DNA from: Caldifarciminota bacterium
GTDB lineage: Bacteria > Hydrothermota > UBA3073
Assembly: GCA_023129165.1 (NCBI GenBank)
Contig: JAGMCL010000056.1
Coordinates: forward strand, 1 to 64,000
Reading direction: 5' to 3'
DNA: 64,000 nt
The notes under the pieces were generated by a model, which was not told the origin of the DNA, made no database searches, and worked only from the letters and a program-made list of their open reading frames with translations. This document shows, one piece after another, positions 12,942 through 50,620 of the stretch. The position numbers and the translations under genes were made by a program. Positions within the stretch are counted from its first letter, which is position 1. Each line of letters begins with the position of its first letter.

Positions 12942-13189
12942 TTTTTAACCACAGAGCACGTTCACCCCGTTAGATAATTCTATATCTAACAGGGCAGGAA
13001 GAACGCTGAGTTAAAATAAAATTAGAAGGGATTGAAAGAGAACTTAAGAGATAAAAAACAGGAAATAATAAAGAAAAACTCTTCAAATCCCTTCAAATCC
13101 CTGTTAATAAAGAAAAAATATAAAGGTTTTAAGTTCACTTAGAGGAAGAAAATAAATTATAATATCTCTGTGTACTCTGCGGTTTAAAA
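12942..13189. repeat. Inverted-repeat intergenic element, TTTAACCACAGAG...CTCTGCGGTTTAAA
   Basis: Ends are imperfect inverted repeats; contains a further hairpin insert at 12961-12998. Confidence 0.65.
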
Positions 13190-33051: not shown

Positions 33052-33145
33052 GGCGTCCCAGTGAAATATGCTTCGCATTTCACGGGATAAATAGGGCGTC
33101 CCAGTGAAATATGCTTCGCATTTCACGGGATAAATAGGGCGTCCC
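33049..33145 (+). repeat. Tandem 43-bp repeat (2 full copies + partial third) encoding a hairpin
   Basis: TAGGGCGTCCCAGTGAAATATGCTTCGCATTTCACGGGATAAA at 33049-33091 and 33092-33134; TAGGGCGTCCC at 33135. Confidence 0.95.
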
Positions 33146-46193: not shown

Positions 46194-46204
46194 AATAGAT
46201 TACG

Positions 46205-46436
46205 TTTGCCACTGATTACACAGATTTATTTAATCAGTAAAATCACTTAAAACCAGTGCAATCTGTGTTTCCAGAAAACTCGGGCTTAGTTCTCTGTATA
46301 TTTTCATCCCAATACCAATGATCTTATAAGTTAGCTCTTCATAAAGAAATTCTTTTTTCCTTTGCCTCATAGTTTTTGATTACACGGATTTAATAAGTCA
46401 ATTCAATCAGTGTAATCTGTGTAATCTGTGGCTTCA
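46205..46436. repeat. Intergenic inverted-repeat words GATTACACRGATT...AATCTGTGTAATC
   Basis: TGATTACACAGATTTATTTAATCAG..CAGTGCAATCTGTG and TGATTACACGGATTTAATAAGTC..CAGTGTAATCTGTGTAATCTGTGG. Confidence 0.7.
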
Positions 46437-46437
46437 A

Positions 46438-47271
46438 CTATTTAGAGATTATTTTCTTCTCCCTTCTCTCAGCCCAGAATCCTATATTTGCCAGGATTAT
46501 TAAGATAACAATAAGAAGGTGAACCATAGACTGGGGAACGATGAGTTCTGTACCAAGCTCCTTAATATTTAGAAGTCGTTCATACTCTGCTGCCCCTCTC
46601 ACACCTACAAGTAATCCACAGAGCTGTTTAGAATCGAGAAAGGGATACATAGCAGAAGAGACTATTGCAGAAGAGCAGAATCCTATATAGGTCCCGTAGA
46701 CACCCTGTACAAATCTAAGCCAGTCTTCAGATGGCCAATAGGCAATTGCGCAAACCATATAGATATCATGGATATCCTCTATATCTTTCATTACCGGGAT
46801 GCTGTCAATTGGAGTTCCTTTTATATCCTTTTTTACTACACCTTCGATATCCCTTGCCAGTGCCTGTATCATAGCTGCTTCACCAGGAAGGTATCCAAAA
46901 TTACACCAGTCTATTCCATATTCCTTCTTATATTTCTTTGCTACCTTCTGTGCAACTTCTCTACCAAATCCTGTGCCCTGGGGAATTCTTGACATAATAG
47001 CAAATTTAGTACCCTTCCTCATAAGGTGTTCCATTACCGCCTCTGTTTGTGGCCAGTTCTCTCCTCTGTTTCCTGCATCCCAGGTACAGTCAAGGAGAAT
47101 GATTTTGTCCTCAGGGCATTGCTCAATTATTGTATATACACCATTCGTTTCCCGACTTATAAATATTGGAAAGTGAATCTTAACAATGAATGGTAAAACT
47201 ACTGCAATAACGACCAGAAGGTATATAAGCCTTCTGTCGATTTTACCAAGTATTACAAGGAATTTTCTCAT
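46438..47271 (-). CDS. Uncharacterised membrane-anchored protein with large extracytoplasmic domain
   Basis: N- and C-terminal TM; ILLDCTWDAGNRGENWPQTEAVMEHLMRKGTKFAIMS...YLPGEAAMIQALARDIEGV; start in ATGA overlap with 47268. Confidence 0.7.
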   Translation of the reverse strand: MRKFLVILGKIDRRLIYLLVVIAVVLPFIVKIHFPIFISRETNGVYTIIEQCPEDKIILLDCTWDAGNRGENWPQTEAVMEHLMRKGTKFAIMSRIPQGTGFGREVAQKVAKKYKKEYGIDWCNFGYLPGEAAMIQALARDIEGVVKKDIKGTPIDSIPVMKDIEDIHDIYMVCAIAYWPSEDWLRFVQGVYGTYIGFCSSAIVSSAMYPFLDSKQLCGLLVGVRGAAEYERLLNIKELGTELIVPQSMVHLLIVILIILANIGFWAERREKKIISK

Positions 47272-47933: not shown

Positions 47934-47947
47934 ATTTTATCTTTTCA

Positions 47948-48105
47948 GGACGCAGATTTTCGCAGATTATTAAGATTTTTTATATTTCTTAAAATTTATT
48001 ATATACTATATTTACAATTATAAAAAAAAAGAGGCAATTATGTTTTTTATAGTTAATTATTTATAGTTAAATTTTTATCCTGTATATCTGCGTTCATCTG
48101 CGTCC
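47948..48105. repeat. Inverted-repeat element GGACGCAGATNNNNGCAGAT...ATCTGCNNNNATCTGCGTCC, uninterrupted copy
   Basis: Left GGACGCAGATTTTCGCAGAT; right ATCTGCGTTCATCTGCGTCC. Confidence 0.88.
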
Positions 48106-48112
48106 AACATAT

Positions 48113-48892
48113 TTACAAAGATAGCAATTTTACAAACCATCCAGAACTAATTGTTGCAAATATGATTCCTATAACCAGAAGTATAAATACAACGATCTTT
48201 CCTATATCCTGTCCCACTACACTTCCTTTTATAATAGGTTCGTCAGAAAGATATGCAGATGCAGCATACAATTCTTCGCCTATAAGTGTATAATCACAGG
48301 TTACAAGGAAGAAAGGGATTTGGAAATATGAGTCAGATGCAGCTATCTGGATTGCTCCTAAATTTCTACCTGTTTCAGCAATAATAAGAGATTCAAAGCC
48401 ATACATGCCAAAGAAAAAGTGTGCTCCTGTATTCTCTCTTATCATAGTGCCTGCCACTGCAGAGCCCCATGTTGATTGGTTATCTGAGTAGAATCTGATG
48501 TTAGTCGCATCGAATAAATCAGGTCTACCACCTAATTCGTAAGCATCCCTTACATACTCCTCAACAACCGGATAGATTTCGGGTCTGAATATTGGAACAA
48601 TGGTTTTGATACCATAACTTGCCGCAAGTTTAACCACACGCGATAGAACAGAGAGAGAGGCAAGGGTGGGGGCATCGAAACTTCCAAGACCAAGACTGAA
48701 TAAAATAGGACTTCCGAGTTCTGTTGCTCGACCTACTGCCTCATCAACTGCCTCAAGCCCTGGAAGTCGACGTAAAAAGAGTTTGCGTCCTATTTTAGCG
48801 GAAAATATCTTATAGAGTATGGCAAAACATATTCCAAATAAGAGTATTCTTACTGTCCAGGTTGCATGCTCCATAGTAATATTAAGAATCAA
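48113..48892 (-). CDS. DUF6754-like membrane protein
   Basis: LPGLEAVDEAVGRATELGSPILFSLGLGSFDAPTLASLSVLSRVVKLAASYGIKTIVPIFRPEIYPVVEEYVRDAY. Confidence 0.72.
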   Translation of the reverse strand: MILNITMEHATWTVRILLFGICFAILYKIFSAKIGRKLFLRRLPGLEAVDEAVGRATELGSPILFSLGLGSFDAPTLASLSVLSRVVKLAASYGIKTIVPIFRPEIYPVVEEYVRDAYELGGRPDLFDATNIRFYSDNQSTWGSAVAGTMIRENTGAHFFFGMYGFESLIIAETGRNLGAIQIAASDSYFQIPFFLVTCDYTLIGEELYAASAYLSDEPIIKGSVVGQDIGKIVVFILLVIGIIFATISSGWFVKLLSL

Positions 48893-48904: not shown

Positions 48905-49106
48905 GGACGTCCCGCCGATGGCGGGATCCCGCCAGAGGCGGTGACAGATTTTCGAAGATTATTAAGATTTTTTTTCTTTTTTTTAATTATTTAAAAATGT
49001 ATTAATTTTTTTATCCTGTATATCTGCGTTTACCCTGTTAAATATGCTGCTACCAATAATCGCTTAATCAAATTCTACATTTATTTAACAGGGTGAATCT
49101 GCGTCC
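48905..49106. repeat. Second copy of the GGACGCAGAT inverted-repeat element, interrupted at both ends by palindromic inserts
   Basis: Insert 48910-48944 (TCCCGCCGATGGCGGGATCCCGCCAGAGGCGGTGA) and insert 49031-49096 with CCCTGTTAAATA/TATTTAACAGGG stem. Confidence 0.88.
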
Positions 49107-50620
49107 AAAATTTTTACAAATCCTCCCTGCTCTACCTGAACAGGATTTGAGAACTTTTTCTTAGATTTGAGGGTGAAATCTCTATTATATACCTCCATAA
49201 CCTTTAAATCGTCTGGAATTTCGAGATAGATTTTATTTGCCTCTGTTCCATTGAGAATATAAAGTTCTTTTAAATTTACGAATTTCAATGATACTGGTTT
49301 GTAAAGGGCATAGATTGCCTTCTTTCCTTTCCTTGCTCCAAGATATGAACCATCTATGGACGCATCAAAATCACCAAATAGTATATCCCTGTATTGTCTG
49401 TGGAAACCAACCCAGTTTTTGATAATATTTTTTACCTCTCCGGTGAGTTTCTCAAGATCTATGGATATAGTGGGTACGAAAAATACAGAAAATATCATAT
49501 GCTTAGCTATATTTTCTAATTTTTCGTCCTTATGCCAGTAAATATAGTCTGTATGCGTGGGAACATCTGGTGTAAATGCTCTAAGGCGTATACAGTTTTC
49601 AAGGTTTTTCTCGAAGTCTAGTGGTGTATCAAACCCACGATATACTGCGCCTACTTGTAGACCGAAAAGATTTGCGTAATTCTGTCTGAATTCAAATAGG
49701 AGATTCTTTCCAATTTTCGGAAGTCCCTTATAAAAATCTAAAAGCCCATCTCCAACTGGTAGGGCATCTACGAAGTCTATTTTAAACCCATCCAGTTTAT
49801 TCTCGTTATATAAAGAATTCATTTTGTCAAGGATGTAATTCAGCGCCTTTTTCTTGGCAGGGGAGAGCCATTTTACTCCATAACTCTCCTTACCAATGAG
49901 ATGAGAGCCTAAATTATTATATGTCTTCGATTGTTTTCCCACCATAAACGGTGCAATCCACAGAAGGAGTCTCATGTCCATATCCCTGAGTTCTCTTGCA
50001 AGTTTAATCATCTGGGGGAATTTTTTCTTTGATACCATCCAGTCGCCTGTTTGAGCGTAACTTCCCCATTTTCCCCTTTTATCAAAAAACCATCCATCAT
50101 CTATAATAAAGGTAGTTAGTCCAAGTTCCTTTGCGATTTTTGCATTTTTAAGGCACCAATTCTGATTTACTGTATGATGAATACCATACCAGCTGCAAAA
50201 GACAGGTTCATAAGCTTCTTTTGGAAATTGAGGTGGATTCATTCCTACAGCTTCTCTATATTCTTTAATAGAGTAAATCCAGGAGTTTCTGTCTTCTGTT
50301 TTGTATATGTGAATTTTATCCTTTTTCCTCATATTCATCTCAATTTTATAGTTACCATTCTCCTCATTTAGAGATATTTTTACCTTAAGATGTCTGTCCT
50401 GTTCAATAAGTCCAATAGCAAATCTTACCCTTTCATCTCGTGAAAGGAAAAGTATGAGAGGAATACCCTTATGAGGTCCTGTTTCAAATTCATATCCCCA
50501 GGGAAGTCTCTTATAACCAGAAGATGTGAATATTATAGCAACATCCAGTATAGGAACCTCGAAAATGAATTTCTTCCCTTCTATTAAATTTATTCCATCC
50601 TTAAGATTTTTCAATTCCAT
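49085..50620 (-). CDS. Alpha-galactosidase, GH36-like
   Basis: PVFCSWYGIHHTVNQNW..LGLTTFIIDDGWFFDKRGKWGSYAQTGDWMVSKKKFP; LDGFKIDFVDALP. Confidence 0.85.
   Translation of the reverse strand: MELKNLKDGINLIEGKKFIFEVPILDVAIIFTSSGYKRLPWGYEFETGPHKGIPLILFLSRDERVRFAIGLIEQDRHLKVKISLNEENGNYKIEMNMRKKDKIHIYKTEDRNSWIYSIKEYREAVGMNPPQFPKEAYEPVFCSWYGIHHTVNQNWCLKNAKIAKELGLTTFIIDDGWFFDKRGKWGSYAQTGDWMVSKKKFPQMIKLARELRDMDMRLLLWIAPFMVGKQSKTYNNLGSHLIGKESYGVKWLSPAKKKALNYILDKMNSLYNENKLDGFKIDFVDALPVGDGLLDFYKGLPKIGKNLLFEFRQNYANLFGLQVGAVYRGFDTPLDFEKNLENCIRLRAFTPDVPTHTDYIYWHKDEKLENIAKHMIFSVFFVPTISIDLEKLTGEVKNIIKNWVGFHRQYRDILFGDFDASIDGSYLGARKGKKAIYALYKPVSLKFVNLKELYILNGTEANKIYLEIPDDLKVMEVYNRDFTLKSKKKFSNPVQVEQGGFVKILDADSPC

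Follow-up and report, generated by a model that had tools for sequence, protein, structure and literature searches.

The inserts that interrupt an intergenic repeat in the DNA analyzed here are probably very small, non-autonomous mobile palindromes that settled in GxxExxY element ends. The analyzed DNA (the window, 64,000 nucleotides) is contig C106 of genome G000 (3.03 Mb, 153 contigs), and it was compared with the sister genome G001, which belongs to the same WOR-3 genus, and with genomes of other phyla. In the labels below, G denotes a genome, C a contig, L an extracted locus, and g a genus. Presence or absence of the palindromes was observed directly in the window genus. Duplication of 4 bp and the polarity of gain were observed in other phyla and would be expected to apply to the window genus as well.

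The interrupted repeat and its host element

The first-pass annotation had described two copies of one repeat, one of them carrying two inserts, and direct reading together with a repeat search found both copies and both inserts to the base as claimed (Table 1). At the left junction, GGACG (48905-48909) is followed by the 35-nt TCCCGCCGATGGCGGGATCCCGCCAGAGGCGGTGA (48910-48944) and then CAGATTTTCG; at the right junction, CTGCGTT (49024-49030) is followed by TA, the 61-nt palindrome (49033-49093), TGA, and ATCTGCGTCC. These two places are referred to as slot 1 and slot 2. The slot-2 palindrome has a perfect 12-bp stem (CCCTGTTAAATA/TATTTAACAGGG) and, with four flanking nucleotides (TA...TG, 49031-49095), represents 65 nt added at a TT^AA site. 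The single C that had been reported as replaced at the right insert is no longer a replacement if the recipient read CTGCGTTAATCTGCGTCC, because TA-palindrome-TG then fits TT^AA exactly. The CTGCGTTAATCTGCGTCC variant exists in the window genome (C69, C91). Within the window, ATCTGCGTNNATCTGCGTCC has 3 matches versus 0.01 expected, and CCCGCCNNNGGCGGG has 6 versus 0.16 expected, both well beyond what chance would give.

Table 1. Positions of the repeat copies, inserts, and related features (window coordinates unless a locus is named)
Feature	Position	Strand	Description or basis
GGACGCAGAT element, uninterrupted, 158 bp	47948-48105	-	MITE-like, internally deleted derivative of GxxExxY-encoding element
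Interrupted copy of GGACGCAGAT element with two palindromic inserts	48905-49106	-	Direct reading and repeat search
Slot-1 insert, 35 nt, GC-rich double hairpin between GGACG and CAGAT	48910-48944		Repeat comparison
Slot-2 insert, 61-nt palindrome, CCCTGTTAAATA-37 nt-TATTTAACAGGG	49033-49093		Member of genome-wide 61-63-nt family
30-nt relative CCCCGTTAGATAATTCTATATCTAACAGGG nested in AACCACAGAG-type repeat	12965-12994		Repeat search
GxxExxY-remnant element, CCACTGATTACACAG ends	46199-46448		Sister comparison
Melibiase-like ORF (PF02065)	49085-50620	-	C-terminus and stop codon (LDADSPC, stop) in repeat end and palindromic insert
In-frame Omnitrophota palindromes	L211:1662-1716, L211:2967-3021, L196:474-528

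The annotation had also treated the two copies as an empty site and a filled site. It was right about which copy is interrupted, but the copies are paralogues of one genome rather than a strict empty/filled pair, and their comparison alone therefore could not show acquisition. The G001 ortholog of the interrupted copy has both inserts, in a region that is ~97% identical, so that the window locus provides no empty site. In genus g2 (L423) the region differs from the window locus, with assembly gaps and an extra gene. The melibiase-like ORF obtains its last residues and stop codon from the repeat end and palindrome (49085-49106). Elsewhere in the window (33056-33130), CCCAGTGAAATATGCTTCGCATTTCACGGGA is present in tandem, apparently representing a further CCC...GGG palindrome family, and the adjoining region differs in the sister.

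Both ends of the uninterrupted copy match a full-length GxxExxY copy at G000:C152:2580-3031 (87% over 68 nt and 86% over 49 nt, both on the minus strand). This 0.45-kb unit encodes a 148-amino-acid GxxExxY protein (TIGR04256, E = 2.5e-39), which places a TIGR04256/PF13366 protein between the same inverted ends as those of the window repeat. In the full-length element, the GxxExxY nuclease-like (PDDEXK_3) gene lies between inverted arrays of the ~10-bp unit GGACGCAGATNAACGCAGAT. Because its ends are shared with the full-length unit, the 0.16-kb repeat is a MITE-like remnant, an internally deleted derivative of a mobile GxxExxY element. PF13366 has 19 matches in the window genome and 13 in its sister. 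Inverted ends of the GGACGCAGAT type surround at least six of these, and ends of the AACCACAGAG type surround one.

At the orthologs of three intergenic sites (46199-46448, 47935-48113, and a site on G000:C74, L070:1115), the sisters carry different GxxExxY-type elements, with GGACGCAGAT ends versus CCACTGATT-type ends. The sister has a full-length GGACGCAGAT GxxExxY element at the 46199-46448 site, with its GxxExxY match at G001:C43:13417-13758. It is as if elements had been swapped at these three sites, or as if the sites were hot spots. Judged from these differences between sisters, GxxExxY elements look mobile. A literature search for GxxExxY mobility found no paper.

Empty and filled sites in the window genus

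The CCCYGTTARATA arm motif was found at 143 sites in the window genome and 167 in the sister, and the reversed motif at 5 and 1. Among the 57 palindromes extracted, 47 were 61 to 63 nt long. The extracted copies have 12-bp arms as terminal inverted repeats and diverse interiors, several of which look unrelated. Most palindromes have CAGAT on one side and AACGCAG on the other, within a repeat end, or occupy the equivalent place in CCACAG-type ends. In the DNA examined, slot 2 was empty, with just one nucleotide (A, G, or T), in 16 cases and was filled with 66 to 67 nt in about 10. In other copies slot 1 holds TCCCGCCTTTGGCGGGATCCCGAAGAAAGCGGGA, and it is empty in the orthologs of those copies. 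Thus positions are fixed and ends recur, rather than positions being random and ends non-recurring. The flanks are usually TTCA/TAAA (13 of 55) or similar, including composite flanks, rather than perfect direct duplications.

Two ortholog pairs provide clean empty and filled sites. One site on G000:C20 (L119:2570) reads CTGCGTT-[palindrome]-ATCTG-[GC double hairpin]-CGTCC and is empty on G001:C16 (CTGCGTTCATCTGCGTCC). The reverse case is filled on G001:C42 (L171) and empty on G000:C152 (L067:2585), which reads GGACG-CAGAT-G-AACGCAG. The empty sites that the first-pass annotation hoped to find in sister genomes therefore exist at C20/C16 and C152/C42, but not at the window locus.

Each pair differs at both slots at once, in the same two places and with an identical GC insert; the same 34-nt GC insert is also present at C71. 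Such a joint change with an identical insert is an indication of gene conversion by a composite donor. One reading takes conversion to be the whole explanation: the palindromes would have invaded a GxxExxY end a single time in the distant past, and the present copies in the genus would be products of conversion or co-amplification with no recent movement of their own. The palindrome subfamily that is always co-linear with AACCACAGATTCA...GARCCACAG fits this reading as well. However, the slot-2 interiors are very diverse, and in the window copy the GC insert and the 61-nt unit sit at opposite ends, so that the slot-1 and slot-2 inserts can occur separately. Copies in other phyla occupy unrelated contexts with 4-bp duplications, including an in-frame insertion in a gene and a solitary copy (below). 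We therefore regard conversion as the sole process as rather unlikely, although it deserves more weight than the other alternatives considered here. The GC-rich double hairpins of slot 1 make up a second family, placed independently of the slot-2 palindromes. Because both inserts arrive jointly, gene conversion is likely to have had a part in their spread from one repeat end to another. Once in a repeat end, inserts could pass to other ends by ectopic gene conversion, which would explain both joint arrival and constant position.

Other small units also differ between the sisters. An extra 67-nt unit is present or absent at L134/L145, and 20-nt GC-rich palindromes (e.g., CCTGCCTGCCGGTAGGCAGG) are present or absent without duplication at L067:7986, L124:1318, L149:2370, and L184 (minus) 16669. 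Two of these 20-nt palindromes sit at the center of another palindrome (GGTCGGAT^ATCCGACC), and in one sister genome a 33-nt hairpin is inserted in the middle of a hairpin. The slot GTCATTCA^CAGGGAG of AACCACAGAG repeats (L149:5192, L123:2220-2356) holds hairpins of 17, 29, 62, and 110 nt. The longer ones contain a 33-nt TCCC...GGGA hairpin, single or repeated, a pattern of growth by nesting.

Copies in other phyla

When one genome per species was scanned, the matches listed placed the palindrome in at least 10 groups (Cloacimonadota, Bacteroidota, Calditrichota, Patescibacteria, Omnitrophota, Nitrospinota, Desulfobacterota, Planctomycetota, Armatimonadota, and Thermodesulfovibrionales). Within the WOR-3 phylum its distribution is patchy: 12 of 147 genomes have it, including all five of the window genome's family. 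Flanks were evaluated in 63 non-redundant copies from other phyla, in which arm position 9 is paired in 62. Direct 4-bp flank matches were found in 18 of the 63, whereas 10,000 shuffles gave 5.0 on average and never more than 13 (p<1e-4); inverted 4-nt matches were not enriched (10 versus 13 expected). The foreign flanks are of two kinds: direct duplications of TNNA, and TTYA/TRAA pairs that are mostly TTCA/TAAA (19 of 63). In the TTCA/TAAA class, here as in the window genus, the flanks are not direct repeats, yet the insert still adds its own length plus 4 bases. Similar repeat arrays in Omnitrophota, Nitrospinota, and Stahlbacteria carry copies in one and the same slot, with perfect TGAA, TTAA, and TTTA duplications.

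A conserved 1,130-amino-acid Omnitrophota protein with no Pfam match has two 47-nt palindromes in its gene, each of which, with a TTTA duplication, makes 51 nt, or 17 codons in frame. Both 17-codon inserts are absent from all 29 homologues examined, and the polarity is thus a gain in the Omnitrophota gene. These results bear on the idea that the long repeat copy came first and gave rise to the short one by losing its palindromes. Replication slippage can remove palindromes, and an outgroup state is lacking at the window locus. However, the insert is derived in the sole case for which many outgroups are available, and the short state agrees with full-length GxxExxY elements at their ends, which leaves deletion quite improbable. 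Nor did the sister genomes show the long copy to be ancestral. The earlier proposal that an older repeat took up the palindromes as discrete units is borne out by the orthologous empty/filled pairs, the recurrent length and position, the 4-bp duplications in other phyla, and the Omnitrophota polarity.

A function as RNA or transcription structures, such as terminators or riboregulators, instead of as mobile DNA would account for the stability of the hairpins. Their location in repeats, and even within a coding gene, does not suit such a role; the interiors have little extra structure (mean z of -0.35 and -0.48), and Rfam gave no significant match for the palindromes. We consider this explanation very improbable.

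Genus g54 (G273-G276) has ~14 near-identical 64-nt copies in G275, the mark of a recent amplification. In this genus (L401-L420) the 64-nt unit lies mostly inside a GTAG...CTAC palindrome and a second small hairpin is present in one arm, so that nesting is three deep. The solitary copy, on G273:C72, is flanked by a TAAA/TAAA duplication.

Possible movement and known relatives

The proposed guest unit, with conserved 12-bp CCCYGTTARATA arms and a variable interior, would enter TNNA tetranucleotides and add its length plus 4 bp. The units might be moved by an enzyme acting in trans, or they might spread through copying directed by the hairpin. No longer element with palindrome ends was found in a non-exhaustive survey of ~1.1 Mb of the two genomes and 80 foreign loci. 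Viral contigs had 0 palindrome matches and thus gave no sign of phage carriage. A resemblance of GTTARAT/RYYYAAC to integron attC and Xer/dif sites was dropped because the motif orientation is the reverse of that of attC.

GxxExxY was considered as the mobilizer and rejected. PF13366 occurs in 81 of the 147 genomes of the phylum versus 12 for the palindrome, and G275, with its fresh copies, is not among the PF13366 genomes listed. Because the distributions do not match, GxxExxY is not sufficient, and perhaps not necessary.

A further candidate is a Y1 (HUH) REP-associated transposase (RAYT), which would move the units as REP sequences without target duplication. Like REP/BIME sequences (PMC2817692, PMC3733652), the palindromes are abundant small hairpins that are often in composite palindromes. 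Y1_Tnp genes are present (8 and 5 matches in the two genomes), and both the GTAG...CTAC setting of the g54 unit and the TTYA/TRAA flanks, which are not direct duplications, are in keeping with this possibility. Nevertheless, no such palindromes were found near any Y1_Tnp gene of either genome, and thus there is no linked flanking transposase. The unit itself has no GTAG or CGTC tag by the hairpin, its flanks are TNNA, and the 18 copies with direct 4-bp duplications are unlike REP/BIME. Mobilization by RAYT therefore seems improbable.

A broader conjecture, toward which we are doubtful, is that these are cross-phylum mobile hairpins directed by structure: stem sequence would be interchangeable as long as it is paired, palindromes would refill slots in the centers and arms of others, as in the GTCATTCA^CAGGGAG slot and the hairpin within a hairpin described above, and the enzyme would read hairpin geometry plus TNNA rather than a transposon end.

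Typical MITEs are longer than the palindromes found here. The palindromes resemble prokaryotic MITEs (PMC10969869) in being short, non-coding, and nested, with inverted ends, many copies, and 4-bp duplications in a subset. In contrast to MITEs, the interior is not conserved, so that the arms are most of the conserved part; no autonomous partner was found; and one arm motif is common to ~10 phyla among the matches listed. Terminal inverted repeats and presence/absence at orthologous sites were both found, and the palindromes mostly qualify as MITEs, although no autonomous partner turned up in the DNA surveyed. Rickettsia palindromic elements (RPE; summarized in PMC10969869) likewise occur in frame in protein genes, a situation seen here in Omnitrophota only; the window copy supplies just a stop codon to an ORF end. 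In contrast to RPE of ~150 bp, the Omnitrophota unit is 47 nt with a clear TTTA duplication, the hosts are unrelated, and the palindromes are mostly nested in repeats. Thus the palindromes are MITE-like and RPE-like. The GC clusters of yeast mitochondrial DNA (PMC4478555) are also mobile palindromes of ~40 nt that are present or absent at homologous sites, with units that merge and are shuffled and with co-conversion, and their mobilizing enzyme is likewise unknown. The palindromes described here differ in residing in bacterial chromosomes, in having TNNA 4-nt rather than AG targets, and in their conserved CCCYGTTARATA arms. A literature search found no description of the palindrome family, which is not proof that none exists.

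The palindromes look like a widespread and apparently undescribed class of very small mobile DNA. Units of 40 to 65 nt that share just a 12-bp arm motif over ~10 phyla, with more than 100 arm-motif sites per genome and the ability to insert in frame into coding genes, would rank among the smallest mobile DNAs known. Sites that are polymorphic between the sisters make the mobility of the palindromes directly testable. The palindromes also tie GxxExxY genes, which are common but of obscure function, to mobile repeats that act as landing sites.
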